DNA from: Globodera rostochiensis
Lineage: Eukaryota > Nematoda > Chromadorea > Rhabditida > Heteroderidae
DNA: 64,000 bases
Direction: 5' to 3'
Assembly: GCA_018350325.1 (NCBI GenBank)
Contig: JAEVLN010000026.1
Location: 620,001 to 684,000, forward strand
Part shown: positions 24,076 to 48,164 of the stretch, one piece after another
Layout: each line of letters opens with the position of its first letter
How positions within the stretch are numbered: position 1 is the first letter of the stretch
Program-made: the position numbers and the translations under genes
The notes under the pieces: generated by a model
The model's input: only the letters and a program-made list of their open reading frames with translations
Told to the model about the DNA's origin: nothing
Databases searched by the model: none

Positions 24076-24262
24076 AGTAGTTACTACCTGCTTTTTCACC
24101 GGGTACGGTAATGACGTCATCAAAGCCAAAAGGTATGAGAGGGTTGGCGGCCAATTGAGCGCCCGCCAGCCAGATGAGCGCCAGACCATTTGAGCGCTGG
24201 CCATCTGAGTCCCAGAGCCCAGACCTATTGGCAGGGCTACTGCGAGACTTTATGCAAATTTC
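24076..24262 (+). repeat. Maverick terminal inverted repeat, left
   Basis: It begins AGTAGTTACTACCTG followed by CACCGG and TACGGTAA, and holds several TGAGCGCC-type words (24,155-24,215) and TGCAAATTTCG. The same landmarks occur inverted at 47,995-48,164. Confidence 0.85.
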
Positions 24263-25327: not shown

Positions 25328-25796
25328 TTACAAAGGCATAAACAAACTCGTCGGGCCTATTTGATCGATTAAAAAATGCATAACAACTTCAAAATCAAAG
25401 CCAACGGACATCAAATAAATAAAAGTGATTACATAATGGCCACAAACATTAGAAAAGATTGATTGAAATATACTTTTGTTAAAATAAATTTTCTTAAATT
25501 TTTCTGACAAAAATTTTTTAATTAAAGAGTTTGGCATATCGCCATAAGAATCAAAAAAATAGGCCTCTGTTGGCGACTTGGCCCAAATCGCGCACCAGTG
25601 AGAACCCGGCCTGCCAGCTCGGTCCTTAATATAAAATTAGCAATAAATAGTTTTGCAAAAACATTACCAAATTAACAATAAGGCTGCAGGGGAATCTTGA
25701 ACACGAGGGCAAGCCATCCGAAGGGAAGGTGCCCATAAAAAATTTCCTTGTCGCCGGATTCTCAAAGAGAATCTTGTCGATGAACCGGTTGTCCAT
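25328..25796 (-). CDS. Adenain-like cysteine protease (Polinton PRO)
   Basis: Two exons, 25796-25668 and 25624-25328, join in phase (GTAATG...TTAAG) into 141 residues. The family signature is clear: an N-terminal FFMGTFPSDGLP segment, GSHWCAIW with the catalytic histidine, YFFDSYG with the acidic residue, and a glutamine followed by NVCGHYV with the nucleophile cysteine. Adenovirus-type proteases mature capsid and core proteins; Polintons encode a homologue. The start is placed at the ATG inside the 3' end of the upstream small membrane gene, which overlaps by about 35 bp in another frame. All catalytic residues are present. It lies directly downstream of the major capsid gene on the same strand. 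Confidence 0.88.
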
Positions 25797-25998
25797 TTTG
25801 GCGCCGAATTCTCCTTTCTCGCAAGAACAAATAAAACCCAACGGCTGCAGCCCCTGCAGTCCCAAACAAATAGAGAAGGCAGAGCGCAAAGTGTATAGGC
25901 GACTTTTCGATCACCTCCGGGAAACAAAGAACAACCCCCTCGCGCGGGGATGAGGCCATTTGAATAATTTTTTCCAAGGAGTAATTGTCGTTTTTCAT
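25762..25998 (-). CDS. Small single-pass membrane protein
   Basis: This 78-residue ORF starts within the MCP stop codon (ATGA overlap) and ends inside the protease gene. Residues about 37-60 form one hydrophobic helix (FALCLLYLFGTAGAAAVGF), followed by a basic RERRIRR stretch, which predicts a single-pass protein with a positively charged tail. The family is unknown. Tight overlap with capsid and protease genes suggests a structural or maturation role, but this is inference. Confidence 0.5.
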   Translation of the reverse strand: MKNDNYSLEKIIQMASSPREGVVLCFPEVIEKSPIHFALCLLYLFGTAGAAAVGFYLFLRERRIRRQNGQPVHRQDSL

Positions 25999-27382
25999 AA
26001 GGACAGGTCACTTGTAATTGATCTATTACGATCAATTAGAATGAGGCCGTCGGCCTCTCCGTAGGCTATTAAGGTGACGCCCTCGGGGGGAACAGGCTCG
26101 GAAAATCGAATGTTCACCGCAGTGCATCCCTCCTTGATCAGCTCAAAGCCAGGCGAGTCTTCCTGCGAGTTGGTCATTTGAAAGACATAAAGGCAAAAAG
26201 CCGTCTTGAACATGCTGTAGCTGAGGCCGTTGCTTTCGGTTGTACAAGCAAGGCCGAGGTGTTCCTGCGCGTCATGATAGGCCCTTGCATAATTGTTGTT
26301 TTTGTAGTCCAAATTGTAGGGGTATTGGGGGTATGTTCTGCCAGAGGCCGTTAGTTCAATGTCCCTAACCTAAAAAGGAAAAACGCGTGAGCAAGTTTTT
26401 AATTGGTTCTTACGTTATGGTGATTAAAGAAAAAGGGGTTCTTTTGTTTATGGCCAATGTAGTTCTGGTTGGCGACTAGCCCGATGATGACCCTTCTTGG
26501 CACTTCCTCCGTGAACAAATTCGCAGAAAAGTCGTATCGGCCCCCGGTAATGAACAGGGACTTCATAAACGATTTGCGAATCCCAAATCTGGCCGGCTCA
26601 ACATCCAGCTTCCTTGCAATGTCCAAACTCAGCCCGTCCATTAGATCGACAGTTTTCACAATCAGCCGGCAGTCGGAAATTTCCAAAACAAATTTATCTT
26701 TTTCTTTTTCTTGGTGCAGCATAAAATCGTCAGACTGCAGCGCGAGCTCAATGTCAATCTCCACATTGCTAATCATATACAAGTCTTGGTTGAATATATC
26801 GGCACTTAGCTTGCTGATTGTTTGATAGGCTTTGCTTTCAGCCAACGGCTTCCTTCGCTTATCATTGGCCTTAGAAAGGTCAGTATCGCGAAAATAGCCC
26901 GCCACCCCAAAATAGGCATCCTTTGCAGCAATCGGATAACTGAGTTCCGTGTCGAGGTACACCTTGTAGCTGTACAACTGGTTGGAGTCGTACACCTCTC
27001 GCTGGTTGATATGCACTTTCAAGTTTCGAATAAAGGTTGCCCCGGGCATTTGGATTAGCCCAACCGAGTCAGACGGCCCAATATTATTAAGCAATCCATC
27101 TTCGGCAATCTTTTTGATCTTAAACTCAGTGAACACAAAGACCTTGCTCAGATCAATATAACTGGTTATTGGGTGAATCTAAATTTAATTGGCGATTGAG
27201 TACGCAAAGACAAATTTATCGATCACCTTAAAATGAAAAGGCCTAGAGCTTATCGGGTTCAAGGTCAAATATTCCCTGTAGCTTGAGTTTGACACTGCGC
27301 AGTTTGTTGGGGGAGTCGTAAAAAAGTCTAGCCCTGCATTTGCCACCTCCGCACTCGCAACATCCACTTTTTTATACAACAT
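25995..27382 (-). CDS. Major capsid protein (double jelly-roll, F54H12.2-like)
   Basis: Three exons are proposed: 27382-27212, 27178-26414 and 26369-25995, giving about 436 residues. The first intron would be only 33 bp (GTCTTT...TTTAG); the two stops in it lie in the coding frame, which supports splicing. The protein shows the order typical of the nematode F54H12.2-like family, now known as Polinton capsid proteins: an N-terminal DFFTTPPT and YREYLTLNPIS, a YIDLSKVFVF strand, INQREVYDSNQLYSYKVYLD, and a C-terminal segment with GRTYP and YARAYHD. It would form the pseudo-hexagonal capsomers. The real start is ATG 27382; the TTG at 27397 just upstream is in frame. The gene sits between the core-like protein and the protease. 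Confidence 0.85.
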
Positions 27383-27919: not shown

Positions 27920-29940
27920 TCAAAAGGTCAGAACCTTTTTAAACTGAAGCGTCAAAACTACTTGCCCAAAATCAAATGGAACTTCCCTAAAATAGATTTT
28001 AAAAGGGGCCTTAGAAGTAAGTACACATACCGGCCGGTCAGTGTTCTAATCTCAACATCCAAAACATCCACCTCGCGGGCGATTATTTTATGAAATAAGG
28101 GGGTTTGGAAATCTTTCTCAACCACGCTCCCTGATTTGCCTTCAACTGCAATCACTTGGAGGAGATTGGCAAAAGTATTTCCGAAAATCATGCTTTCAAT
28201 GATCCCGCTGTTGAGGTAGATACACAAATGGCTCACGCCGCCGCCCAAATCAACCGAATATTTGGCGAGATCCTCGTTTAGGATCTGCTGTTCCTGTTCA
28301 TAGCCAAGTACGTAGGCCAGCTGGTCGGTCAATGTGATATGGGAAATTTTGTTGTCGAAGATTTTCAGCATAAATCTGCCAATATCCTCCATATAATAGA
28401 AACGGAATCCTTTGATGAGCGCGATCAACTCTTGTTTTTCCTCTCGCGTTTTTGACCCATAGTTTTCGTCGTACCCTTCGCGTTCAAACAACCCTTTGAA
28501 CTCTGCGATGTTCCGCTGAATTTGGGCGGAAGGGTTAAACGCCGGCAGATCCCAGGGCAACTCTGGGTGGTGAATCCGATATTTATCAACTGCGTTGGCA
28601 AAGTGGTATTCATCTTTTTCGTGCAGATAATGAACATCGGGGGTTGGGTCTTTGCCATGCGCTAGGCGCATCCATCCACCCCTATACGGTTTCAACTCCT
28701 TGAGAAACTCGAGCTCTCGCAGTTTAAATTTTCTTTCTTGATCTCGCCGCATTCTCTCTTCTTCTTTATTTTTGTCTTGGCTGGCGCTCTCTTGTTTTAG
28801 TTTGCCAACTCTCTCGCTCTCCTTCCGCTCATTCTCCTTCCGCTCATTCTCCTTCCGCTCATTCTCCTTCCGCTCATTCTCTTTCCGCTCATTCTCTTTC
28901 CGCACATTCTCCTTCCGCTCATTCTCCTTCCGCTCATTCTTTTTTCGCTCATTCTCCTTCCGCTCATTCTCTTTCCGCTCATTCTCCTTCCGCTCATTCT
29001 CTTTCCGCTCATTCTCCTTCCGCTCTTTCTCCTTCCGCTCATTCTCTTTCCGCTCATTCTCCTTCCGCTCATTCTCTTTCCGCTCATTCTCCTTCCGCTC
29101 TTTATCCTTCCGCTCATTCTCTTTCCGCTCATTCTCCTTCCGCTCTTTCTCCTTCCGCTCATTCTCTTTCGGCGCATTCTCTATCCGCTGTAACCTCTCT
29201 GTCTCCTTACGCACAGCCTCTAGCCGTTGTCTCTCAGTCTCTTTGCGGCCATCCTCTAGCCATTTCTGCCCCTTGGCCTTTCGCTCATTCTCCGACTGTA
29301 GTCTATCTTTCTCTTTTTGCTCAGCCTCCACCCGCTGCAGCCGCTCTGTCTCTTTACGGTCTTCCTCCAAGCGCCGCAGGCGCTCTTTCTCTTTACGGTC
29401 TGCCTCCAAACGCCGCAGCCTCTCATTTTCTTTTTCGTACGCAGCTCTCTCTTTTTCCTCCCTTTGGGCACGCTCCCTCTCTTGAGCTTCAGTCTCATTT
29501 CTCACAGACAGGAGAGGGGCTTCCTCAACGACTTCTAGGTCAAAGAGCTCTCCTTCCTCTTCTACAAGAGCTGCCCTTTTCCGCGTCATCAACCGTTCCA
29601 TCTCGGATATCATGCCATGATGGATCCCACGCTCAAGTTGTTGTGGCGAAAGAAAACTCCCGCTTGGCACTCTGAACCTATATTTACGGCCATCGCGCAG
29701 ATGTACAATCACGTATTGTTTCTCAAGGGTGCCCACTGTTGCCCAACTTAAAGGTAATTGGCTAAAAGCTCTTGCCCAATTGGCCTACCTGTTGGGATAA
29801 ATTATGCCAGACATTCCCACCATCCACCCGGACCCCTCAAACACCAATTTCTTTGGCAGATGAACTTTAAATTTATTCGTTTTATTCCCAACAAACCCAG
29901 GCGTATTGCTGGGTAAAATTACAAAAAAGGAGTTGCTCAT
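27920..29940 (-). CDS. Penton-like minor capsid protein with a KENER repeat
   Basis: Three exons are proposed: 29940-29789, 29746-28025 and 27986-27920. Exon 1 has SFFVILPSNT and GWMVGMSGIIYPN, the usual N-terminus of Polinton minor capsid proteins. Residues about 90-370 are a highly charged predicted coiled coil that includes more than 20 near-identical five-residue repeats (K-E-N-E-R, encoded at 28,805-29,165). The C-terminal single jelly roll follows: YSVDLGGGVSHLCIYL, FGNTFANLLQVI, LDVEIRTLTG. The last short exon restores the expected terminal strands after a GTACTTAC donor. The protein should close the five-fold vertices. The copy at 34490-35976 lacks both the KENER tract and the jelly roll. 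Confidence 0.8.
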
Positions 29941-30726: not shown

Positions 30727-31025
30727 GAATAAAAGATGACAAAAAATAATGACTTTCGCGTAAAATGATCTGCAAAAATGTTTGGGGGAAAAGGGAAAAA
30801 GAAATAAGGGTGTTAGCTCGCAGGGACCTCCAGACAGTTGCGTTACGAAATAAACGCCCCGCCCATTCGCCTCCTTGAGAGAGAGAGAGAGAGAGTACGT
30901 GCGTGTTGAGGGGCCCCAACCAAAGATAGAGAAAGAAAAAGGCGGGAAAACCAAATTTAAAAGCTAAGGCCCAAGCCCTTTATTGATTTTTTTTCGTCAA
31001 ACATTTATTCTTCATTTGTTCAAAG
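30727..31025. promoter_or_regulatory. Divergent promoter region, copy 1
   Basis: This 299-bp non-coding interval separates leftward structural genes from rightward PAZ/packaging genes. It contains a GA run (30,876-30,895), ACGTGCGTG and GCCCGCAGGGACCTCCAG-like sequence shared with copy 2. No TATA box is obvious. Initiation here is inferred from gene orientation. Confidence 0.5.
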
Positions 31026-31578
31026 ATGATCCCATTGACTACCGCCCTGTCAAAATTGTTAAATTGTAAGCCGGAAAATTTGGCGGAATATTTGAATAAC
31101 CCTGAGGCGGTGAACAAAGCGTCCGGCTACTTGGGCGGCAAAAAACTCAAAACAACATACTTGAGCCGTGACGGCACAACAAAGGACGTCAAATTTGGCA
31201 ATTTTTCACTAAAATCAGCGTCGGACACCTACGCTTTTGAAGGATTTCTTGGCATGTTTTGTCATCATTTTCCCCCTTCACACTACCACCCTCCTTTTCC
31301 AGAGGTCAAAGTCCACCAATATTTCTACATAAAACACCGAATTCGGCTTCTTTACCCTCAGTTGAAGTGTGTGGTGGAGTACCACAACAAAGGCCACAGC
31401 AAATATTACCCCTTGGGCAAGTTTAATACCTAAGGGGATTTCGAGAATTGGCCCTTTATTTATTTATTTAGAGTTGTTAGCCATTGACGAAAGTGCCGAA
31501 GGAGGCGATAAAGCGTCTGACGACCACAACTACTTGGACTACTTGAGTTTCCGAACTTGGCAGACTCCAGTCTATTGA
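31026..31578 (+). CDS. Stand-alone PAZ domain protein, copy 1
   Basis: Three exons, 31026-31251, 31303-31416 and 31472-31578, give 148 residues. Both introns start with GC instead of GT (the second is GCAAGT, the classical GC donor); splicing them brings all parts into one frame. The C-terminal half has the PAZ core: VHQYFYIKHRIRLLYPQLKC followed by VVEY and KYYPLELLAI, which is the nucleic-acid-binding end of the domain in Argonautes. The N-terminal half (LKTTYLSRDGTT to DTYAFEG) fits the PAZ beta barrel. There are no MID, PIWI or Dicer RNase domains. PAZ binds 3' ends of small RNAs, so a role in blocking or hijacking host silencing is conceivable, but that is inference. It stays intact although neighbouring genes in this copy are broken. 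Confidence 0.78.
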
Positions 31579-31590
31579 GTGGCGCAGAGA

Positions 31591-32009
31591 ATGAAACGGG
31601 CAAGGCCATCGCCGGAGTTTCCGGAGATTGAGTTCAACGTCAACACAATGGGTCTGACCGTGTATTGTCCCCGGCACCTGAAAACCCCGCGCTTGGTGCC
31701 ATGGGACCAGCCGGGCCGCTGCTCTCGCTGCAGGAGCGGCACTGTCGAGCTCGACTACTTCATTCAGGCAGAGGGCGTTACAGTTTTCTCGACTCGGCTC
31801 AAAAACAGGGGCGAACACTTTGTGCCATTTGACGAGATCGGTAAAGGTTTTTGTGTAAATTAATCAATAAGTTGATTTTAGTGGATTTTGGCGACAACGC
31901 CAAAATTCGAATAAGATCGCGCAACAAAGTGTTCACTCTGCCATTGAGGCAGCCGGAGGTTTGGCAAGCTGAATCTGTTGCAGGGGCCGGCCAAGTGTTG
32001 GCAGTTTAA
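31591..32009 (+). CDS. Zinc-ribbon-like protein, copy 1
   Basis: Two exons, 31591-31840 and 31882-32009, encode about 125 residues. CPRH followed 20 residues later by CSRC could bind zinc, and a tryptophan-containing C-terminal tail follows (LRQPEVWQAE). The ATG lies 12 bp after the PAZ stop. Copy 2 (37597-38067) is 142 residues; this copy stops earlier. I recognise no named family. Confidence 0.6.
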
Positions 32010-32116
32010 CCGCCGACGGAAGTGATAAAGGACGGAGAGGAGAGGAAAGACACAAATTGATTTCTTACCTAAAATTGAGGCCGATCAATCAATCAATCAT
32101 TTTAATCTTTTTTGTA

Positions 32117-32803
32117 ATGGACTATCCAAGAATAAACGAGCAAGAGTTAAAATTTCCGATCCCCTGCGGGATTATTGTCAGTGGGCCCTCATCGTCGGGC
32201 AAAACCCAACTGGTCCTTCGCCTATTAAGCTGCGCAGACGAAATGTTTGCCCCCCCCCAAGGCAATAGGTTAGCGCTTGATGTTTACAGATTTATTGGCT
32301 GATTAAGTTTGGGCGTACTGCGAATACTCTGCGCAGATTCCGGAATTGGAGAGGCAGGGCATAATTGTTCACGCAGGGGCCCCATCCGACGAAATGTTGA
32401 ACAAGTTGCCAAAACCCTTTCTCATTGTATACGACGACCTGATGGGCGAGATTGACGCGAAAAAGTTGGCCGACCTGTACACCAAAAAGTCACACCATAA
32501 CAACTTTGCGGTGATTTTCCTCACGCAAAACCTATTCGACAAGGCAATGAGAGTGCCAAGGTCAAACGCCCAGTATATTTTCCTCATGAGGGCACCAAAC
32601 GATATGTTGAGTATTCGTTGGCCACTCAAATATTTCCCCGCGAGCAGGGGTTTCTGATTGACGCTTATAAACAGGCTTGTGCAGAGCCGTATGGGTATTT
32701 GTTGGTGACCCTTCACGCAAACACTAACAACATTTTACGACTGAGGACAAACATTTTTCCGGAGGACGACGAAAAAATTATATTTATTTCCAAAAATGGG
32801 TAA
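32117..32803 (+). pseudogene. Packaging ATPase, copy 1 (frameshifted)
   Basis: This is homologous to 38111-38803. The Walker A segment GPSSSGKT is intact. A C9 run near 32,250 is two bases short relative to copy 2, and four bases are missing near 32,617, so the frame is broken at least twice. Walker B (LIVYDDLM) survives in an isolated frame. Confidence 0.8.
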
Positions 32804-33170
32804 ACACGAAAAGAAACAGCTGTTCGGACAACGCGTGTTGGAAAATTACGAATATTTGAAAACCCTTGGAAAAGACATCCTCCCAGAAGAAGATACGTCC
32901 ATTTGTTAAGCAGAGCCGGGTGTGAGGAGCTGTTGACGTTGGTGGAAATCTGTTTGAATATTTTAAACGGAAGCTTTTGTCTGACCACAAACAAAAAGCA
33001 GAAGATTACCCCCTTTGCGAACTTTATTCGAAAAGTTGGCTCGAGCGAGAACGAAAAAGTGGCAGGAATTGGCTTTCAATCCGGCGGTTCACTGTTGCCC
33101 CCCTATGGCACCGTAATTGATGAGTCGCGCGCGATATTTGCTTACCGGGACGAGAGATGGCAAACAAACT
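32796..33170 (+). pseudogene. Conserved 131-residue Maverick protein, copy 1 (frameshifted)
   Basis: This corresponds to 38796-39191. Homopolymer indels, for example an extra A near 32,870, and base losses up to 33,120 split the frame, while segments such as LLTLVEICLNILNG remain readable. Confidence 0.75.
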
Positions 33171-33890
33171 AATTCGGCTCCAATTAACCTACAGGGACTG
33201 TTGCGGCGAGGGATAAGTAGGGTGACTTCACGTCAACAAAATTGGTTTGTCAAACAACAGTTTGAAAAGGCAAAGAGAAAGAGGCGGCAACGTCAGCGAA
33301 AGAGTGCTGAGTACATCCGCAGTTTGATGAATATTGTAAGCTTCGCAAGAGTCAGGCAACCGGTCAAGTCCAACTCGCAAGGATGCGCCTGATGAACCAG
33401 CCCTGAAACAGCTAAATGAAGCCTGGGCCTGAAGAAGTGAAGGACTATTTGATTGGTGCAGTGAGCGTCTGAGCATGAGCCTGCGGCAATAAGCACCCCC
33501 AAGTTTTCTACGCCAAAGGAGGTGGAAGTTGGCCCAGAGCCAAGGCCCAGCAGGAAGAGGGATCTCAAAAAGCAGGAGATAATGGCCAAAGAGCAGCAGC
33601 TTTTGTCGATAATAAAATCAGACCCTAAGCGGTTTGGCGTAAATGCGCGCGATAAAATCATCAACCCCTCAACAGGGCGAGAATTTATTGATTTTGATTT
33701 GACGAGGGCTATTGAACGCCTGGTGAACCCCCGTCCGGAAAATGCCCCGTCGCCAAGCGGTACTCGGGAGCTGACAAAAAAACTCTTGCAAGACCCAACC
33801 GCCAGGCAGTTGCTCAATCCGCTATTTGTCGGATCCGGAAAGCCCATCAAACGCGCAGGATTTTGCCCCTCAAAATGGAAGAAAAAATAA
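33157..33890 (+). pseudogene. Maverick 243-residue protein, copy 1 (frameshifted 5' half)
   Basis: The region 33,157-33,500 contains many small deletions relative to 39160-39520. From about 33,522 the frame is open and nearly identical to copy 2, ending in a lysine-rich KWKKK just inside the integrase start. Confidence 0.75.
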
Positions 33891-34489
33891 ATAAAATATA
33901 CACGGACCCCTCCAATCCTGGGGGGTTTGCGGGCGCAAAGCCTCTATACGCGGCAGTCAAAAAGGAACACCCTGGCGTGAAGAGGGCAGAGTTTGACGAC
34001 TTTTTGCGGGGAAGTACCACCTATACGCTGTTTAAACCTAAGCGCCAAAAATTCCGCCGCCTAAGAACAATCCCCGGCGGGTTTATGACCGGTGAGTTAC
34101 CCTCCCTTTAGCCCTTTTAACTTTGCGTTCAGATGTTCAAGCCGACTTGGCAGACTTCCAAGCCCTATCGCGAAAGAATTCGGGTAATCGGTACCTTTTG
34201 TTGGCAGTTGATGTGTTGTCGAGGCGGATGTTTGGAGCGCCGGTTAAAAGTAAAAAGCCTGCGGACATGAAAAGGGCCTTTGAAGAGCTTTTTGGCCAAA
34301 TGCCAAAACTTCCGGAAACGCTGTACACGGACCGAGGGCTGGAGTTTGTGGCAAAGCCTCTCAAGGAATTTTACGCCGAAAAGGGCATCCAAAAGTTTGA
34401 GACAAGTTCAAAGAAGAAGGCCGCCGTTGCAGAGCGCGCAATACGTACGCTCAAAACCCGTCTGTACAAGTATTTTTCTGCCAAAAATA
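33875..34489 (+). pseudogene. Integrase, copy 1 (3'-truncated)
   Basis: Exon 1 (33875-34091) and the first part of exon 2 (from 34133) match 39916-40530 closely, including the first two acidic catalytic residues (VQADLADF, LYTDRGLEF) and the glutamate in AVAERAIRTLK. At about 34,489 the sequence switches to minus-strand penton sequence, removing the rest of the core and the chromo-like domain. Confidence 0.9.
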
Positions 34490-34505
34490 TCGGCCATTCC
34501 TCCAT
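34476..34505. other. Duplication junction
   Basis: Up to about 34,489 the sequence follows integrase (compare 40,530); after it follows penton (compare 28,378). Both parents contain TCTGCCAA at this point, so the breakpoint has short microhomology. Confidence 0.85.
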
Positions 34506-35976
34506 ATAATAGAAACGGAATCCTTTGACGAGCGCAATCAGCTCTTCTTTTTCCTCTCGCGTTTTTGACCCATAGGTTTTCGTCGTACACTTCGCGTTCA
34601 AACAAACCCTTTGAACTCTGCGATATTCCGCTGAATCTGGGCAGATGGGTTAAACTCCGGCAGCTCCCAAGGCAGCTCGGGGTGATGAATCCGATATTTA
34701 TCAACAGCGTTGGAAAAATGGTATTCATCTTTTTCGTGCAGATAGTGAACATCTGGGGTTGGGTCTTTGCCCTGCACAAGGCGCATCCATCCTCCCCTAT
34801 ACGGCTTCAACTCCTTGAGAAGTTCGAGCTCTCGCAGTTTAAATTTTTATTTCTTGATCTCGCCGGATTCTCTCTTCTTCGCCTGCTGGGTTAACTGCTC
34901 GTTCAGTGCCGTTATTGGGGCGATTCCCTACGTCTTCAGGTTGTTTGGCAGAGCTTTCTTCCTCTTTCTTTTCGGTTTCTTCCTTTGTTTGGCTAACCTG
35001 TCTTCTTCTTTCTTGCCGGGGTCTTCTTTTTGTTTGGCTAACCTGTTTTCTTCTTTCTTGCCGGGGCTTTCCTTTTGTTTGGGTAACCTCTCTTCTTCTT
35101 TCTGTTTCTCTAGCATTTCGTTCACCGCCTGCTGGGGCGCTTGTTTGGGGGTGCCTAACTTTTCTTCTTCTTTCTTTTTGCTTGCAGCCCCTTCTTTCGT
35201 CGCATTTGTCATCCGTTGCAGCCTCTCTGTCTCCTTACGCAAAGCCTCTTGCCGTCGTCTCTCAGTTTCTTTGCGGCCATCTTCTATCCATTTCTGCGCT
35301 TTACGCTTGCGCTCATTTTCTTTTTCCTGCGCAAGTCTCTCTGTTTCATTCGGCGGGACAAGCTCCCTCTCGCGAACTGCACCTCTCTGTTCTGGGGGTC
35401 TTACGTTTGCCAAAGGGGGTTGTCGTGTTCTCTCAGCTGCTTGTTCACTTGCAAATTTTGTTTGGCTCATTGGCAGGAGAGGGGCTTCAACACTCTCTTT
35501 TCGTTCTTCCTTAGCGACTTGCAGGCCAGTAAGCCCTCCTTTCTCTTCTTCAACGACTTGTACATCAACAAGCTCTCCTTCCTCTTCCTCGTCTTCTTGA
35601 AAAGCGGCCCTTTTCCGCGTCATCAGGCGTTCCATCTCGGCGATCATGCCATGATGGATTCCACGCTCAAGTTGTTGTGGCGAAAGAAAACTCCCCCTTG
35701 GCACTTTGAACCTATATTTGCGCCCATCTCGCAGGTGGACAATCACGTATTGTTTTTCAAGCGTTCCCACTGTGGCCCAACTTAAACGTAATATTGGCAA
35801 AAAGCTCTTACCCAATTGGCCCACCTGTTGGGGTAAATTATGCCAGACATTCCCACCATCCACCCGGGCCCCTCAAACACCAATTTCTTTGGCAGATGAA
35901 CTTTGAAGTTATTCGTTTTATTTCCAACAAATCCAGGCGTATTGCTGGGCAAAATTACAAAAAAGGAGTTGCTCAT
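34490..35976 (-). pseudogene. Penton-like minor capsid protein, copy 2 (truncated)
   Basis: Exon 1 starts at ATG 35976 and matches copy 1 (SFFVILPSNT, IYPN). The charged middle differs strongly: it has KQKE.PGKKEE-type repeats rather than KENER repeats. The frame breaks near 34,930 and again near 34,600, and the gene is cut at the duplication junction, so the whole jelly roll is missing. Confidence 0.85.
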
Positions 35977-36011
35977 TTTTAACAAACAAATAAATAAAGT
36001 GATAAGTGAGA

Positions 36012-36764
36012 TCACTTCCCGCCTGTGTACGGGTAATAAGGGCCGTTCTTTGTCGGCGCGTCCTTCTTTTGGTGCTTCATGATCAGGTCAGTGCAATCAA
36101 AGTTCAGCTTGGCACAGTCGCGGCAGAATGTTTGGGTGAACTCCAAACGGCCCTCGCCATTTTGGGGTGTCAGCATGAAACGGCGGTCGCCCATTTGAAA
36201 ATTGGCTGTCTGGCAATCCTTGCACATAAACGTGAAGGTGCCGTACTAAATGGGAAAAGCTTAAGTACAGTTATTTGCAGGGGAGCTCTCACCTTGGGGC
36301 GTGCGAGCTTCCAAAAGATGGTTGGGTAGTCAAAGACACTTGTCTGACTCTTTTCGTCGCCTGAAGTGAATAAATCGCAAGGCCAGCGATCTTAGAATAC
36401 CATCGCTTTCGTTGGCCCGAATTTTTTTGGGCGGCAGCTCCTCTTGTTCTTGCTGGTGTTTGTCCCAGCGAGGCTTGCGGCCCCGTTTGGTTAGCGCGGG
36501 TTTTTCCAGCAGGGGCTTTCGGTCGTCGTCGTCGTCGTTCAAAATGATGACATCATTATCCGGCTTTTCTAAGGAGCTTTGTTTAAAAAAAAGTTTTTAA
36601 TAATTGAAAAAGATACCTTGTTTAAATTTGCGCGCTCCATTGTTGTTGTCCTTGCTTGAATCCCCAAAGGTTTGCTCTATAAAGTGGCGCTTATGGCGAT
36701 TTAAAATTTTGATATTACTTTGACTTTCCTCCACAAATTGTTCATTTTGTCTTTTAGGCGGCAT
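36012..36764 (-). CDS. AT-hook and zinc-finger protein
   Basis: Four exons, 36764-36617, 36568-36401, 36360-36293 and 36245-36012, give 205 residues. After a basic N-terminus (MPPKRQNEQF) come an acidic NDDDDDR run and KRGRKPRWD, which resembles an AT-hook for the minor groove of AT-rich DNA. The last exon has MCKDC, FCRDC and NFDC, probably one zinc site, and ends in TGGK. A small basic/acidic protein with DNA-binding marks beside the divergent promoter could be a transcriptional regulator or a DNA-packaging protein; I cannot decide. The strong TTCAG acceptor before exon 3 explains an apparent stop in both copies. Confidence 0.65.
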
Positions 36765-37042
36765 TAATAAAAAAATAACAAAAATAAAGGTTTTAGAGAG
36801 AATGATCATTAAAAATGTGTGGGGAAAAAGGAAGAACAGGTGTTAGCCCGCAGGGACCTCCAGACAGAGGCGTTACGAAATATGCGCCACGCCCATTCGC
36901 CTCTTAAGGGATAGAAAGAGAGAGAGAGAGTACGTTTTGAGAGAGCTTGAAGATAGAGAGAAAAAGGCGGAAAAATCAAATTCAAATGCTAGTACCCCAA
37001 GCCGCTTATTGATTACCCCGTCATTCTTGCGTTTGTTGAAAG
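36765..37042. promoter_or_regulatory. Divergent promoter region, copy 2
   Basis: This is the counterpart of 30727-31025, with the shared CGCAGGGACCTCCAGACAG and a GA run (36,917-36,930). It drives the zinc-finger gene leftward and the PAZ gene rightward, judging from orientation. Confidence 0.5.
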
Positions 37043-37585
37043 ATGGTCCCATTGACTACCGCCTTATCAAAATTGCTAAATTGTAAAGCTGAAAACTTGG
37101 CGGAATATCTGAATAACCCGGAGGCAGTGAACAAAGCGTCCGTTTACTTAACCGGCAAAACGCTCAAGACAACATACTTGAGCCGTGACGGCACAACAAA
37201 ACAAGTCAAATTTGGCAATTTTTCACTAAAGTCAGCGTCGGACACCTACGCTTTTGAAGGATTTCTTGGCATGTTTTGTCATCATTTTTCCTCCTCGCAC
37301 TAGCCCCTCCCTTTTCAGAGGCCAAAGTCCACCAATATTTCTACATAAAATACCGAATTCGCCTTCTTTACCCTCAGTTGAAGTGTGTGGTGGAGTACCA
37401 CAACAAGGGACACAACAAATATTACCCCTTGGGCAAGTTTAAAATAAGGGGATTGCGAGAATTGGGCCCCCTATTCAGAGTTGTTGGCCATTGACGAGAG
37501 TGCCGAAGGAGGCGACAAGGCGACTGAAGACAACAACTACTTGGACTACTTGAGTTTCCGAACTTGGCAGACTCCCGTCTATTGA
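37043..37585 (+). CDS. Stand-alone PAZ domain protein, copy 2
   Basis: Three exons, 37043-37268, 37319-37432 and 37479-37585, again 148 residues and again with GC at both donors. In this copy intron 1 contains an in-frame stop, so splicing is required. The PAZ core VHQYFYIKYRIRLLYPQLKC and KYYPLELLAI is kept. The acidic tail (DESAEGGDKATEDNN) ends in WQTPVY. Compared with copy 1 there are scattered amino-acid changes (for example GYLGGKK to VYLTGKT) but no length change. It is the first gene of the rightward row PAZ, zinc-ribbon, ATPase, integrase. No catalytic silencing domain is fused to it. Confidence 0.8.
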
Positions 37586-37596
37586 GCGGCGCAAGA

Positions 37597-38067
37597 ATGA
37601 AACGGGCAAGGCCTTCGCAGGAGTTTCCGGAAATTGAGTTCAACGTCAACACAATGGGGCTGACCGTGTATTGCCCCCGGCACCTGAAAACCCCGCGCTT
37701 GGTGCCATGGGATCAGCCGGGCCGCTGCTCTCGCTGCAGGAGCGGCACTGTCGAGCTCGACTACTTCCTTCAAGCAGAGGGCGTTACAGTGTTCTCAACT
37801 CGGCTCAAAAATGGAGGCGAAAACTTTGTGCCATTTGACGAGATCGGTAATGGAGCTTTTTTCGGCCAATTAATAATTTGAATTTCAGTCGATTTTGGCG
37901 ACAACGCCAAATTCCGAATAAGATCGCGGAACAAAGTGTTCACTTTGCCATTGAGACACCCGGAGGTTTGGCAAGCAGAACCTGTTGCAGGGGCCTCCCA
38001 AGTGTTGGCAGCTCAACCGCCGGCAAAAGAAATGAAAGACGGAGAGGAGCCAAAAGGCCCCAATTGA
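37597..38067 (+). CDS. Zinc-ribbon-like protein, copy 2
   Basis: Two exons, 37597-37846 and 37889-38067, give 142 residues. CPRH and CSRC may form a zinc ribbon (residues about 27-52); the C-terminus is rich in charged residues (KEMKDGEEPKG). The start is 12 bp after the PAZ stop. The function is unknown; conservation in both copies argues that it is a real gene. Confidence 0.62.
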
Positions 38068-38110
38068 TTCACTGACCCTTGAACCGATCAATCATTCTAA
38101 TATTTTTGTA

Positions 38111-38803
38111 ATGGACTATCCGAGAATAAATGAGCGCGAGTTGAAATTTCCGATCCCCAGCGGGATTATTGTCAGTGGCCCCTCATCGTCGGGCAAAACC
38201 CAACTGGTCCTTCGCCTATTAAGCTGCGCAGATGAAATGTTTGAACCTCCCCCTAAGGCAATAGGTTAGCGCTTGATGATTAACGATTTATTGGCTGATT
38301 AAGTTTGGGCGTACGGCGAATACTCTGCTCAGATTCCTGAATTGGAGAGGCAGGGCATAATCGTTCACGCAGGGCCCCCAGCCGACGAAATGTTGAACAA
38401 GTTGCCAAAACCCTTTCTCATTGTATACGACGACCTGATGGGCGAGATTGACGCGAAGAAGTTGGCAGACCTGTACACCAAAAAGTCCCACCATAACAAC
38501 TTTGCGGTGATGTTCCTCACGCAAAACCTATTCGACAAGGCAATGCGAGTGCCAAGGTCTAACGCCCAGTACATTTTTCTTATGAGGGCGCCAAACGACA
38601 TGTTGAGCATTCGCAATTTGGCCACTCAAATATTCCCTCGCGAGCAGGGGTTTCTGATTGACGCGTATAAACAGGCGTGCGCTGAGCCGTATGGGTATTT
38701 GTTGGTGACCCTTCACGCAAACACTAACAACATTTTACGACTGAGGACAAACATTTTTCCGGAGGACGACGAAAAAATTATATTTGTTTCCAAAAATGGG
38801 TAA
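38111..38803 (+). CDS. Genome-packaging ATPase (FtsK/HerA, A32-like)
   Basis: Two exons, 38111-38264 and 38304-38803, give 217 residues. Walker A is GPSSSGKT near residue 25; the splice restores the family motif IVWAYGEYS; Walker B is LIVYDDLM near residue 95; FLTQNLF after it matches the sensor strand (motif III). These ATPases drive DNA into the capsid of Polintons and related viruses. Its last codons overlap the start of the next gene by 8 bp. No break is seen in this copy. Confidence 0.92.
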
Positions 38804-39191
38804 ACAAGATAAGAAACAGCTGATCGGACAACGTGTGCTGGAAAATTACGAATATTTGAAAACCCTTGGAAAGACATCCTCCCAGAAGAAGATACGTCAT
38901 TTGTTAAGCAGCGCCGGGTGTGAGGAGCTGTTGACGTTGGTGGAAATCTGTTTGAATATTTTAAACGGAAGTTTTTGCCTGACCAACAAACAAAAACAGA
39001 AGATTGCCCCATTTGCGAACTTTATTCGAAAGTTGGCTCGAGCGAGAAGCGAAAAGAGTGCCAGGAAATTGGTTCTTCAATCCGGCGGTTCACTGTTTGC
39101 TCCCCTATTGGCGCCGATATTGATTGAGGCGGCGCGATATTTGCTTTCGGCACAAGAAGATGGCCAACAAACTAATTCTGCTGCCAATTGA
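38796..39191 (+). CDS. Conserved small Maverick protein with QSGGSLF motif
   Basis: This 131-residue protein starts within the ATPase 3' end (ATGGGTAAACAAG). It is helical and basic in its first two thirds (CEELLTLVEICLNILNG, KQKQKIAPFANFIRKLA), then has LQSGGSLFAPLLAPIL, a glycine pair followed by a hydrophobic helix. I recall this layout as common in animal Polintons next to the packaging ATPase; the pair of glycines could be a protease site and the hydrophobic end membrane- or virion-associated. The exact role is not established. The 3' end overlaps the next gene. Confidence 0.6.
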   Translation: MGKQDKKQLIGQRVLENYEYLKTLGKTSSQKKIRHLLSSAGCEELLTLVEICLNILNGSFCLTNKQKQKIAPFANFIRKLARARSEKSARKLVLQSGGSLFAPLLAPILIEAARYLLSAQEDGQQTNSAAN

Positions 39192-39931
39192 ACACTACAG
39201 GGGGCTGGTTGCGGCGAGGGAGAAAATAGACGATGACGTCACCTGAGCAGACAAACTTTGGCTTTGTCAAACAACAGTTTGAAAAGGCAAAGAGAAAGAG
39301 GGCGGCGAACGTCAGCGAAAAGAGTACAATGTACAATCAGCAACTGAGGAGATATTTAAAGCTACGCAAAGAGGTCAAGGACAAGCCGGTCAAAGTCCAA
39401 CTCAGCAATGGAATGCGCCTGATGACTAAACCACCGGCAACAGGCGTACAATTGAAGCCTGGGCCTGAAGAAGTTGAAGAGACTATTGTGATTGGTGGCA
39501 GTGAAGCTGATGATGATGAGACTGCGACAATAAGCACCCCCAAGTTTTCTACGCCAAAGGAGGTGGAAGTTGGCCCAGAGCCAAGGCCCAGCAGGAAGAG
39601 GGATCTCAAAAAGCAGGAGATAATGGCCAAAGAGCAGCAGCTTTTGTCGATAATAAAATCAGACCCTAAGCGGTTTGGCGTAAATGCGCGCGATAAAATC
39701 ATCAACCCCTCAACAGGGCGAGAATTTATTGATTTTGATTTGACGAGGGCTATTGAACGACTGGTGAACCCCCGTCCGGAAAATGCCCCGTCGCCAAGCG
39801 GAACTCGGGAGCTGACAAAAAAACTCTTGCAAGACCCAACCGCCAGGCAGTTGCTCAATCCGCTATTTGTCGGATCCGGAAAGACCATCAAACGCGGGGG
39901 ATTTTGCCCTTTAAAATGGAAGAAAAAATAA
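39160..39931 (+). CDS. Conserved Maverick protein upstream of integrase
   Basis: Two exons, 39160-39237 and 39278-39931, give 243 residues when a 40-bp intron (GTCACC...ACAACAG) is removed. The N-terminus MANKLILLPIEHYRGL and the YNQQLRRYLKLRKEV segment follow the pattern of a recurrent Polinton protein of unknown function. The middle is acidic and low complexity; the end is basic (PLKWKKK). The gene overlaps the integrase start by 16 bp. It could be virion-associated, but no domain supports this. Confidence 0.55.
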
Positions 39932-41069
39932 ATAAAATATACACGGACCCCTCCAATCCTGGGGGGTTTGCGGGCGCAAAGGCCCTATACGCGGCAGTCA
40001 AAAAGGAACACCCTGGCGTGAAGAGGGCAGAGTTTGACGACTTTTTGCGGGGAAGTACCACCTATACGCTGTTTAAACCTAAGCGCCAAAAATTCCGCCG
40101 CCTAAAAACAATCCCCGGCGGGTTTATGGCCGGTGAGTTGCCCTCCCTTTAGCCCTTTTAACTTTGCGTTCAGATGTTCAAGCCGACTTGGCAGACTTCC
40201 AAGCCTTGTCGCGCAAGAATTCAGGAAATCGGTACCTTTTGTTGGCAGTTGATGTGCTGTCGAGGCGGATGTTTAGCGCGCCGGTTAAAAGCAAAAAGCC
40301 CGCTGACATGAAAAGGGCGTTTGAAGAGCTTTTTGGCCAAATGCCAAAACTTCCGGAAACGCTGTACACGGACCGAGGGCTGGAGTTTGTGGCCAAGCCT
40401 CTCAAGGAATTTTACGCCGAAAAGGGCATCAAAAAGTTTGAGACAAGTTTAAAGAAGAAGGCCGCCGTTGCAGAGCGCGCAATTCGTACGCTCAAAACCC
40501 GTCTGTACAAGTATTTTTCTGCCAAAAATACCTCAACTTGGGTTGATGTACTTGCGGAATTTTTGGCTGCCATAAATAATTCGGTGTGCCGCGCAACCGG
40601 CCTAAAGCCCAACGACATTGACGAACAAAACGCGCGGGAGGTGTGGAAAAAAGTATATGGCGAAGCTATTGAGCCCTCTAGCAAGGGGCCCAAGATCAAA
40701 TTGGGGGAAAATGTCAGAATTCCAGAGCCCAAACACATTTTTGAAAAGGGTATGAAAGTTCAAATGTATTGTTTTTAAAATTTATTTTTAGGATATATGC
40801 CAAACTATTCGGACCATGTCTATACTGTTGATGAACGCCGTTCATCCAAGCCCGAACACTATTTTCTCAAAGATTATTATGGGACAAAATTGAAAAGAAA
40901 ATTTTATTTGCCCGAATTGACAAAAGTAAAAGTGGACAAAAATACACTGTACAGGGTGGAGAAGAAGTACAAGGAGAGGATGAGAGACGGTCAAAAAGAG
41001 ATGTTGGTAAAATTTATTGGATTTCTGGAAAAATATTGGGTTACAAGTGATGATTTTGTCGAACAATAA
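39916..41069 (+). CDS. DDE integrase (Polinton C-INT) with chromo-like C-terminus
   Basis: Three exons, 39916-40132, 40174-40749 and 40792-41069, give 356 residues. The N-terminal zone has IYTDPSNPGGFAGAKALY and FKPKRQKFRR. The rve core carries the triad: D in VQADLADF, D in LYTDRGLEF, E in AVAERAIRTLK. The C-terminus YRVEKKYKERMRDG with LVKFIGFLEKYWV fits a chromodomain-like fold, as in Polinton and Ty3 integrases, which can guide insertion. The enzyme would join element ends to host DNA, giving 6-bp target duplications. It is complete here and truncated in copy 1. It converges on the polymerase gene with 22 bp between the stops. Confidence 0.95.
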
Positions 41070-41091
41070 ATTTAATTAAAAAAAAGACAAT

Positions 41092-44000
41092 TTAATCGGA
41101 TTCGGGAGCAAGATCGGCAATGTCAAAGTTATACTCGGGGTCTGGCACAAACACTTGGCATTCGCAGCAATGGGGGTTGTTTAGCTGGCAGTACTCCCAG
41201 TCGGTGTAGCCAAAGGGCACGACCCGCACTCCATGGTCCCTGATCACGCCCTTGTTGACGGTCGGGTTGAACCTCTTTGCTAGGGGGACGGTGAAGATGT
41301 CGCCCTTTTTGGTGATCCGGAAGTTTTTGGTCGGGTAGTTGAAGCTGACAAAGTTGTCCTGCGCGCCCCACTTCTCCAGCACCATCTCCTTCATCTTGGC
41401 GTAGTTGATCTGCTGGCAGGCGTCCGAGTCGAGGGTGATGCCGCGCAGCTTCATCTTGTATTGGTCCTCGCCGGTGTTGTTGTCGCGCAGCCAGAGGGCG
41501 TAGGCCTTTGGGCCCGCTAAAATAATTTAAATATTTTTTGCCATTTCCCCCGAAACATACCGCAAATGAACTCCACGATCGTGTGTGCCGGATATTCATC
41601 CGTCAGCTCTCCTAAAAAGGGAAATTTATTTAAATTTTTAAATTGAAAATCACCAAGTTGCTCCCCTCCCGGCAGCGGGTCCCCCAATGCCGTCTCGTAC
41701 TCGTAGAAAATGCTGTCGGTGTCCTTAAAGGGGCAAGAAATTATTTTATTTTCTTAAACCCAAATCACCATGTAAAGTACGCGCGTGTCCGTGCGGCCCG
41801 GCCCATTAGCAGCTCCGAAGACTTTGCACAGCGAGTCGAGGAGATGTATCCGAGCCGCTGAAGTCGTCCAAAGCGCTAGCGCAACCTAAACAGTTTTAAT
41901 TTAATTTAATTTCCCAGCCCCAAATTTTTACATTGCTCGTGTCGTGTTCCACTACGTGCTCGTCCTTGGCCTTGTAGCAGACCATCCAGAACTTCTCCGT
42001 CAGCTGGTCGATGCTGCTGATGTCGATCTTGTCGTCGTTGAGCAGCTTGGCCAAGTCCGCGTGGTTGTCGATGATTTCCGTCTTGGTCAGCCGATTCCTA
42101 AATTTGGTTTTTGTTTCGGATTTATTTTCAAAATTTACCTGAGCGCGAAGCGGCCCCAAAGGGAGTTCAAGCAAAGCTTGGACACGTACCGCAGCCCCGG
42201 GTTGTATTTGATGTTGTCCGGGTTGAGACGCACTTGGCACACGCTAAACGCCTTGTTGATGTACGCCTGTTTCCGCGCGGCCGCCTCCTCCTCGCTGATG
42301 CCCTCCTCTGAACAATTTGCCGGGTAGCCGCTAGCTAAATTAAATTATTTTGTTTAAATTTCACCAAATAAAAATATTACCCTCAAACTTCATTTTCAAA
42401 AACTTTTCGAGGTAGCTGTGGAACAAAAAGCCACTCCAGTCGCTTGCCAACGGCCAGTTGTACGCCCTGTAGACTCGCGTGACCCTGTAGCCCACCTTGA
42501 GGGCCTCCGCCAACTCAATGTGCGGGATTGTCACCGAAAAGCCTAAAAACTCAAATTAATTTTAATTATTATTATAAAAAAAAGCCTTACCTCTATCCTC
42601 GTCCTCAAAGTGAGGGCAGCTGTACACCCTGTCCAGCGCGCCGTTCGGAAACAGCTCCGAGCACTTCCGGCACAAAGGGAAGAGCGTCCTTTTGTTCATG
42701 CGCAGAGGCAAAACGGGAATTCCGCAATGGACGTGACGAGGCGGCACGACGAAGCACTTGATGATTCCCTCGAGGGGGTATCCGTCGTCCCCCTTCATGT
42801 CTGCTGGCTTGCACCAATGGACGTCTTTGTCAAAGTGCAAAAGGGTTGGATGGCCGACGGGGTAGTTGGTGAACATGTTCCTGAATTTTTTCAAATGTAA
42901 TGCCAAAGTTTGGGTGGCACTTACCGGGAGGGATACAGGCTGTTGAAGTCCTTGATTTTGATCGTCCTGGGCAGGAGTTCGCCAGATTCCAAAATCACTG
43001 ACGCCCCTAACCACTCAGGGCCTGTTCGGCCTTTAATTTAATTTATATTTTTATTCAACTTTTTAAAATTTACCGCCAAAAAAGGCGTCATGGAAGTCGA
43101 TAGGCCCAGAGTCGGGGGTGTTGTCGAAGAAGGCTTTCATCGCCGGGGTGTCGTCCAGCAGTCGGTTGAGGTGGCATTCCCACACAATTTCAACCTCAAA
43201 CTCCCGCGCAATTTGGGCAATGCGCTTCGCGTCCCTTGCGCGGATGGCTCCCGCTGTCTCTCCTCCTGCAACAATTGCCGCGTCGTCGGGGAAACAGTGC
43301 GGGCAGGCATGCCAGAAGCACCTGTTTGCGCGAAGAATAATAATACAGAAGGCGCCCTTTTTTCACTTACCCGTTGACCTCGATTGCGAGGTTATTCCCC
43401 TCCCCCGGCCTCTCGAGCATGCCGTCCAAGCTGAAGTTCCCAAACTTGTACTCGCCGCCCGGGCTTTCGACATGGCGAAGAGTCAGGCCATTCTCGCGCA
43501 TCTCTTCCTCTGCCCGCCACTAAAAAGTATTATTTCTTATTTTATTTTTAAATTTTAATAAACCTTTAGATATTTCCGCGCGATGGAGCTTTGCTTCCCT
43601 CTCTTCTCGTAACCAAGGTGCGGGATTATTGCGATCTTCTGTTTGTCGTAGTGCGCCAAGGTGACAAAGACCTTCATGCAGGCGGACTAAATTTAATTTG
43701 AATAATTTATTCAATTTAATCAAACTAACCGGAATTGTCACCGAATCGGTGATGTCATGTCTCGTTTCGTTGTAGAACAGCTCGCGCATCTTAATCACTC
43801 CGTGTGCGAGAATTTGGACATCTTAATTTTAAAAAAGTTTCCAAATTTTATTGTTTTAAATTGCACCGGTTTTGCAGTAGTCCGCGATCACTTCGCGCAG
43901 GAGGAAGGGCGTGTTGAAGTTTTCGCGGTGCCAGCGCTCAAGTTTTTTGCGCTCCTCCGGGAAATGCCCACCTGGGTAGTACATTTCCAGCGGCGGCAGA

Positions 44001-46305
44001 GTGTCGAGCGCATTGTCGTAATTTTCTTCCTAAACGGCAAGTTAATATATTTAATTAATTTATTTTAAGTTACCTTGTTGAACTTGTGGGGGAAGTACTT
44101 TTTGTTCTCCACCCCATCAATTTCAAGGCCGAACGTTTTGACAAACGCCGCCAGTTTCAATGGAATCAATTTATAACTGAAAAAATTTAATTAAATTTGG
44201 ATTTTGATTGATTTTCTTTTACCTGTCCCTAAAGACAGTCGCCGTTATGCCGCCCTTTTTGGGGGCGCGCAGCTCCAGCAGATGGTTCCCCTGACGCACC
44301 AGGTTAGGGCGGACGCCCATTCTCAGCATTTCGCCGTAGACCAGTACGTGATCGTAGCGTGAACCTTAATTGGCCAATTTATTATTATTTTTATGTTTGT
44401 TTATTTTTTACCGGCGTGCGCGTACGCGTACGTTGTGACGGAGACAGGTTTTTCGCCTTTCTCGCCAAAGATCATCCAGTTGGCGTCGTCATCGTCGCTA
44501 TCGACGTCGTCAGCCTCCTCGTCCAGTAGGTTGTTTTTGGCCGGGGCACGCTTCCGCTTTCGGCGTTCATTGGTGTCAAGGCCCAGCGTTTCAGCCTCAA
44601 AGTGCAGCAGCCATTTGGTGAACGCCGCCAGCGGGTCGTCCACGCGAAAGGCCCTGTCCACCTCGGTGTTGTCGTAGTAGAACGGCGCCCATGAGTAAAA
44701 GCGGAGGGGCCCACAAATTGCGCAGGCCTTTTCCAGCTCCTTGTCCCATATGCCCTTCTCAATGCACCTTGTGCATGTGACGTGGGCGTAGCAGAAGTTG
44801 ACCTGTAAAAAATTTAAAAAATATTGCGTGAGGGCAATAATTACCAGATGCTTAAATCGCGCAAGTTCGGGGTCCGGTTTGAAGTCCGTCGTGCACTCAA
44901 AATCGAAGAAAATGAGGCGCTTGTCTTTTTTCTCTTTTGGTCGGTACGGGATGTAACAGTCGCGCGGCGCGTGAAATCCAAGACAGACTCGGCAGAATTT
45001 TTGGCCGCACTGATGCCCCTTCTGCTTGTCCTGATCCTTAAAAATAAAATGCAAATTTATTTAAAATATTTGTTTACCATAGCTAGGTAAATAACGCCGC
45101 AGTCAATACACTTTTTGGAGCTTTTGCAGATGGCGTTTTGGGTAGTCGTCGTCTCTTTTCCGCGCTTAGTTTTCCGAATCGTTATTTTGGCGTGGTGCTC
45201 ATAGCATTCAACGCATTTGAAAGTCTAAAAAGTAAAATTAAATTACTTTAAATTAGTTTGAATTAGCCTTATTGCAGTCCAAGCATGTCTCAAAGAAGGT
45301 GTCGTTTTTGTTGTCGCAGTTTCCTCTGAACAAGTTCCCCACGCGTTGACAATTGTGGCACTTCCATTTGCAGGTTGCGTTATGGCGATTTGGTTGAAGA
45401 TAAGGCATTTCGCACTAAAATTTAAATTTTTTTATCTCGCATCTTAGCCGCTTTGCATACCCCAAAGCAGTAATTCCCTTTCTGGTTGAAGAGCCGCCCA
45501 GGCGCCTTGATGGCATCATAGTGCCCAGCAGCCCCTTCATCCCCCTCCGTGAACAGCACACAAAGCTCGTGCTGGTAGTCGTCCACATCCGATTTCCAAG
45601 AAGGCTTCATTTTGCCCGATGTCTCGAAGCAGAACAACCGGAACATTCCGGGATGAAGTTGATTATAAAAGGCCTTAAAATAAATATTATTGCTAATAGT
45701 TTATGCCAAAATACCTGAATTCTCTCCCCGTACTCCTCAACAGAATAAAATGGCTGCGCCAAATCAATGTTGCATGCGTTGCACAACGCGTGCACATCAT
45801 TCAACTGCTTTGCCGGTGCCCGCTTATATTCGCTGAAGCGTTGTTGAGGCAGCACAAACTTCATGCGCAAAAATTCAAACGCCCGGAAGAGACAAAAGTT
45901 GTCACTGTTAGTCAGTTCAAATGTTGCTCCCTGATGGATGTTGTAGTTGATGCTGAACTCCTTGGGACGCCCTTTGCCTGCCAGTTTTTTCCGCTTCCCT
46001 CCGCTGTCAATCGCTGTGATGTCAATGACGAATGATTCCTCGCAGATTGAAGGCCTCTCCTTTGATTTGTTGCTTTGGTCCACCATCTCAAAGCGCGTCA
46101 AAATTGTCTCCGTCGTGGTGTTGTCGATCTTTTTGAAGTGTAGTGCAATTTCGTAGTCCAAGTGCCGCGCAGAAAGTAGAAAGATGAAGTGATCAGCGAC
46201 AATATTCATTCCGTCCGCTCCCTGCACCGCGTAAGCCAAGGTCATAGCGAAGAGCGCCTTCAAAACGTCTTCGGGGTATGCCGACCCCCAAATAAAGTTG
46301 AGCAT
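41092..46305 (-). CDS. Protein-primed DNA polymerase B
   Basis: The gene starts at ATG 46305 and ends at TAA 41092, in about 20 exons and roughly 1,400 residues. The N-terminal part has several CxxC clusters (45,070-45,420). Exonuclease motifs follow: IFFDFECT (about 44,900), SRYDHVLVYGE (about 44,350), YCKTDVQ (about 43,870). Polymerase motifs are DFNSLYPS (about 42,950), KLCLNSLWG (about 42,165), DTDSIFY (about 41,705) and KAYAL (about 41,505). All catalytic acids are present. This is the replication enzyme of Polintons, primed by a terminal protein rather than RNA. Nearly all introns are 40-70 bp. No internal frameshift was noticed, unlike in copy 1 of the packaging genes. Confidence 0.93.
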
Positions 46306-46380
46306 AAAGCGGCCGAGAAAACGAAATGCTTGAACAAAATAAAATTTTAAAAATAATTTTTACTTTATAAATATTTAAAG

Positions 46381-47926: not shown

Positions 47927-47994
47927 CGAAATTTGCATAATCTCGCGCAGGTGCGCGAGCCAGGTGCGCGAGAGGGTCGCGCAGGACCAAAATT

Positions 47995-48164
47995 TGCATA
48001 AAGTCGCGCAGGACCCTGCCAATAGGTTTTGGCTTTAGGACTGACTTGGCTGGGCCTCAGGTGGCCGGCGCTCACTTGGCTGGCTGGCGCTCAATTGGCG
48101 CCCCACCCCCTCCATAGGTTTGGGCTGCTACCGTAATCCGGTGAATTTTCAGGTGGTAACTACT
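47995..48164 (-). repeat. Maverick terminal inverted repeat, right
   Basis: Read on the minus strand it begins AGTAGTTACCACCTG with CACCGG and TACGGTAG, matching the left end with mismatches and small indels. The GGCGCTCA words and AAATTTGCATAAAG are shared in the inverted order. Confidence 0.85.

Follow-up and report, generated by a model that had tools for sequence, protein, structure and literature searches.

A stand-alone L1-PAZ gene in Maverick elements of Globodera rostochiensis, encoding a possible trap for small-RNA guides

A 64,000-nucleotide stretch of the Globodera rostochiensis genome (assembly GCA_018350325.1, contig JAEVLN010000026.1; C19:620001-684000, hereafter the window) contains a Maverick/Polinton element of approximately 24 kb between inverted repeats, which carries two copies of a gene for a stand-alone PAZ protein. 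On the basis of its sequence profile and modelled structure, this protein is predicted to consist of the end of an Argonaute linker L1, a PAZ domain and an acidic, probably disordered tail. We give roughly an even chance to the joint explanation that cyst-nematode Mavericks have long carried this accessory gene and inherited it with the element, and that the L1-PAZ protein traps small-RNA guides and acts as a silencing suppressor; both the binding and the suppression are what we infer.

In both copies the three exons (Table 1) sum to 148 codons plus a stop codon, so the coordinates and the length of 148 residues given in the first-pass annotation, made from the letters alone, were right for the two genes. 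Intron 1 of copy 1 is open in frame (unspliced frame 31026-31433), and intron 1 of copy 2 is interrupted by a TAG codon. Exon junctions of the type found in both copies are matched by a G. rostochiensis database gene model, P0062. This model continues past PAZ into the next gene, fusing to it a frame (31591-31998, +) that resembles a small zinc-ribbon protein with paired cysteines. GC-AG introns are, as reported in PMC4901422, unusually frequent in G. rostochiensis, at a level restricted to Heteroderidae, and the donor consensus given there fits PAZ intron 2.

The Pfam gathering cut-off for PAZ (PF02170) is 28.8 bits. The unspliced window frame (11.6 bits) and P0062 (23.8 bits, E 4.5e-5) score below it, and the orthologues P0004 (32.7 bits) and P0006 (30.2 bits) exceed it. 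Ten proteins of other PAZ families were also scanned: five were above the cut-off, and the remaining five had E-values of 5.2e-5 or better. The predicted fold is that of PAZ, with a structural match spanning AGO2 residues 227-350, and the nearest solved relative is an Argonaute according to both sequence profile and fold comparison; the acidic C-terminal tail is modelled with low confidence. A phmmer search of the PDB with the unspliced window frame gave E 0.21 to AGO2, with equally weak collagenase matches alongside. No Dicer chain was found up to E 1 by profile or among the 50 fold matches listed (RNase III was not searched for), and no viral protein model matched the predicted fold at E 0.001. 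The agreement of orthologues, profile, fold and PolB linkage (see below) rules out a chance similarity to PAZ. The identity originally proposed for the protein is thus upheld by the fold and by the two orthologues above the cut-off, the window frame itself lying below it.

Queries with the Pfam PAZ profile and with three PAZ proteins against the 92.6-Mb genome yielded 60 merged PAZ loci; PolB gave 62 merged loci. These counts are lower bounds, as only the best candidates are scored, and each locus is given once. PolB lies within 15 kb of 39 of the 60 PAZ loci, and the two genes are arranged tail-to-tail in all 39; approximately 2.1% of the genome lies this close to a PolB locus, and because related copies are not independent, a binomial p for this comparison is no more than indicative. 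A PIWI domain was identified within 5 kb of 10 loci, neither PolB nor PIWI near 11, and both near none. With a smaller PolB set and a distance of 10 kb for both, the respective numbers were 24 (PolB), 10 (PIWI), 26 (neither) and 0 (both). PIWI is therefore found within 5 kb at 0/39 PolB-linked loci, which rules out a fragment of a host Argonaute gene and agrees with the absence of PIWI noted in the first-pass annotation.

The 39 PolB-linked loci represent about eleven sequence families, as judged from pairwise identities rather than by clustering. Besides the three-exon window family, these comprise single-frame families encoding 169-223 residues (L004, L007, L044-L051, L053), L052, the L039 type, and types with TBP genes close by. 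All homologues named by organism belong to Globodera or Heterodera, and metagenome proteins add diversity; the PAZ protein of L047 and the G. rostochiensis UniProt entry P0029 are the same from end to end. Homologues in other Mavericks, whose absence the first-pass annotation had named as a refutation, do exist. The gene does not go back to a capture by this one element alone; it occurs beside PolB in about eleven families and has relatives in Heterodera and on metagenome contigs.

Several further observations concern these loci. In seven elements a TBP gene was located no more than approximately 3 kb from PolB (C24:640614, C49:51041, C1:3282410, C56:1828530, C3:1066134, C26:264106 and C45:4111687), and two further elements have TBP immediately next to PAZ (C1:3139826 and C14:1251295). 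The database models P0075 and P0072 join PAZ to TBP, the latter also to thymidine kinase, although these joins may be gene-model errors. In the L039 family, PAZ is neighboured by a frame of 313 residues (L041:3041-3979, -; L039:414-1352, +), which begins like a signal peptide and has no Pfam match. Locus L065 (C56:3565839-3566105, -) is a PAZ-like stretch within a 3279-residue open frame, with neither PolB nor PIWI near.

Comparison of gene copies indicates that the PAZ gene is kept under purifying selection. Among 18 compared loci of the window family, intron lengths vary and exons are ungapped in 16, none of which has a stop within the exons; the two loci with exon gaps (L015 and L026) were excluded from the dN/dS calculations. 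Between the two window subfamilies dN/dS is 0.138 (63 pairs). For copies 1 and 2 (dN 0.042, dS 0.30, dN/dS 0.14), differences were counted at 23 of 92.7 synonymous sites and at 14 of 342.3 non-synonymous ones (p 1.8e-8). The single-frame (intronless) genes provided 45 pairs, of which 38 exceeded the divergence limit and were not used. Five of the seven usable pairs have dN/dS of 0.13-0.18, the close pair L046-L048 has 0.18, and the close pair L050-L051 has 0.52, from few changes. The low ratio bears out the selection suspected in the first-pass annotation, which had described an intact PAZ frame in copy 1 next to a damaged ATPase and later genes. This damage was also found: the ATPase frame is broken in copy 1 (116 aa at 32307 vs 166 aa at 38303), and the integrase frame is shorter (137 aa at 34096 vs 213 aa at 40137). 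Such constraint, together with ungapped exons despite intron length variation and the place beside PolB in about eleven families, largely excludes a decaying, functionless host fragment carried as a passenger. We consider this explanation highly improbable, even though many element copies have decayed, both PolB and PIWI are missing from the vicinity of 11 of the 60 PAZ-like loci, and L050-L051 has the higher ratio given above.

The exons of the two window copies are approximately 90-95% identical; the dS of 0.30 and membership in two subfamilies rule out their fresh duplication. Each copy opens one unit of a repeated block of approximately 6 kb (window 31000-42000), whose identity varies as a mosaic from 89 to 98%. 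Since the PAZ copies show this dS while another part of the block is 98% identical, the element looks mosaic rather than freshly duplicated. A second locus with two PAZ copies, 6.0 kb apart and with identical exon proteins, was found at C30:104829 and 110858.

The origin of the gene was analyzed with an unrooted tree of 19 sequences, based on a short alignment in which several host exons are partial and from which host loci with too short or partial exons were omitted. One group (support 0.99) holds the five host sequences and human AGO2, and the window family lies outside it. Three element sequences are nevertheless placed towards the host sequences (support 0.78): the TBP-associated P0070 and P0073, and L008, which is uncertain (placement 0.20). 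That the gene was recently captured from one of this genome's host genes is conceivable but not supported by the tree, and one capture is not distinguishable from several because the element families do not clearly form one group. Of the earlier proposal that the gene was captured from a host Argonaute, the Argonaute kinship stands, as the nearest solved relative is an Argonaute, but the small tree ties the gene to no present-day Argonaute of this genome.

Positions of the 3′-end pocket were transferred in AGO2 numbering via the profile-search alignment; H271, Y279, F294, Y311, R315 and H316 are those that we take to contact the guide 3′ end in AGO2. As aligned, the pocket is altered yet retains two notable residues, R315 and H316. 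Histidine occupies the H316 position, and arginine or lysine the R315 position, in 46 of the 49 rows with a residue in each case. The Y311 position holds Y in 17/50, H in 31/50 and F in 2/50 rows. In the small alignment the five host sequences have Y at the H316 position, and one PDB entry among the profile matches carries changes at both R315 and H316. The element protein thus shares with the L1-PAZ of human AGO1-4 and Drosophila Ago1 and Ago2 (PF02170) the fold, the profile, and R/K plus H at these two positions. It differs from them in lacking MID and PIWI, in being transposon-encoded, in several altered pocket aromatics, and in having an acidic tail of its own.

A tryptophan is present in the final 12 residues of 33/38 proteins, within acidic tails (40 proteins were chosen and two with tails shorter than 15 residues dropped). 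Many members of the database set P0025-P0059 end in an acidic C-terminus of the GR(D/E/N)ECSQ...W type. Tails of this kind, low-confidence in the model and presumably somewhat like GW-type hooks, could belong to an Argonaute mimic or docking protein that would not soak up RNA; its PAZ surface and tail would dock on host Argonautes or the loading machinery and block loading or partners. We regard this reading as unlikely: a pure docking role would not need the retained R315 and H316 positions.

Viral suppressors of RNA silencing such as p19 and B2, which are not Argonaute-derived, offer a parallel to the proposed guide trap, small-RNA silencing being the common supposed target; suppression by the PAZ protein is putative. 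It would bind small-RNA 3′ ends in the pocket used by Argonautes, and without MID and PIWI it could not act on a target, since holding a guide is the most that a PAZ protein can do when PIWI is lacking. Fewer guides would then reach the host Argonautes that silence transposons, and silencing of the element by small interfering RNAs (siRNAs) would be weakened. In Globodera the affected molecules would probably be siRNAs made by RNA-dependent RNA polymerase, because clade IV nematodes, according to PMC4323106, lack PRG-1/PIWI. The same paper describes antisense-biased 5′-triphosphate G-RNAs against transposons in G. pallida.

Some features of the pocket weigh against guide trapping. The H271 position is substituted, with Y in 48/53 rows and H in 5/53; in 12 aligned element sequences the F294 position is never aromatic (0/12) and the Y279 position is F, V or I, although the alignment is uncertain at both. 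The genomic arrangement speaks in the same direction. PAZ is absent nearby at 23 of the 62 PolB loci and is thus not needed by all elements, while the constant site beside PolB is equally compatible with an element-internal role. In such a role the reused PAZ fold would bind 3′ ends of RNA or linear DNA that belongs to the element itself, and so help replication, integration or packaging, which would fit the tail-to-tail arrangement at every linked locus across families. The 23 loci argue that PAZ is not generally required for replication, and inheritance may be all that lies behind the fixed arrangement; we see only a small chance of an element-internal role. For the guide trap, a broader scenario can be put forward tentatively, and we think it rather less probable than not: a whole Maverick lineage would have turned the guide-holding domain of an Argonaute into a free-standing guide trap, whose W-ended acidic tail may dock on host Argonautes, and thereby into an Argonaute-derived antagonist of silencing. 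The TBP genes beside some PAZ-bearing elements suggest, as part of this scenario, that these Mavericks may be equipped, as larger viruses are, with a small set of genes for taking over the host.

The remaining features of the element are summarized in Table 1. No 6-bp target site duplication was identified, as the flanks differ (TGTCTT/CCGAAT); the ends were placed solely by alignment, and this may be an old copy or one that has undergone rearrangement. A direct Pfam scan of the window PolB frames gave no PolB family match, and the piece 42565-43014 matches a frame on C80 that bears the best DNA_pol_B_2 match of the genome (E 9.3e-21); through this homology the element is assigned a PolB of the protein-primed type. 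The L039 protease-like frame used for comparison scores just under the Peptidase_C5 and C48 cut-offs. The copy-1 ATPase piece matches Pox_A32 with 14.3 bits, below the 22.8 cut-off, and the copy-2 piece matches no family. Two frames without a Pfam family match (25998-26369 and 26402-27178) are, we assume, similar to Polinton capsid proteins. Approximately 28 copies of a 15-bp repeat (28708-29294) lie within a 608-residue frame (27961-29784, -), which encodes a charged ERKEN-type repeat. Like other accessory genes of nematode Mavericks/Polintons, PAZ is non-core and lies between terminal repeats together with PolB and integrase; none of those described is known to us to be silencing-related.

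Table 1. Features of the Maverick/Polinton element, in window coordinates
Feature	Position	Strand	Details
Stand-alone L1-PAZ gene, copy 1, subfamily 1	31026..31578	+	exons 31026-31251, 31303-31416, 31472-31578
Introns of L1-PAZ copy 1	31252-31302 and 31417-31471	+	GC-AG type
Stand-alone L1-PAZ gene, copy 2, subfamily 2	37043..37585	+	exons 37043-37268, 37319-37432, 37479-37585
Introns of L1-PAZ copy 2	37269-37318 (in-frame TAG inside) and 37433-37478	+	GC-AG type
Left terminal inverted repeat	24076..24261	.	local alignment with 47990-48164
Right terminal inverted repeat	47990..48164	.	local alignment with 24076-24261
Integrase (rve), copy 2	40140..40775	+	PF00665 35.9 bits, cut-off 32.6
PolB region, fragmented (e.g. 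42565-43014)	41095..46359	-	homology to frame elsewhere in genome
Adenain/Ulp1-like protease frame, weak	25331..25636	-	39% identity over 84 residues to L039 protease-like frame
ATPase-like gene, main frame of copy 2	38306..38800	+	copy-1 counterpart 32307-32657 frameshifted

UniProt/NCBI lists the same genes, for Globodera and Heterodera, as PAZ domain-containing proteins, under automatic domain-based names without a Maverick link. What may be new is the association of PAZ with Mavericks. Among the titles and abstract openings covered, a scope outside which a 2023 nematode Polinton paper lies, nothing was found on PAZ in Mavericks, and an earlier mention is possible; PMC11071308 mentions neither PAZ nor Argonaute. 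A conserved element-encoded PAZ protein addresses the question of how Mavericks persist against small-RNA silencing in animals, above all in nematodes without PIWI-interacting RNAs. If the proposed explanation is true, a fragment of Argonaute would join the genes known to pass from hosts into virus-like elements.
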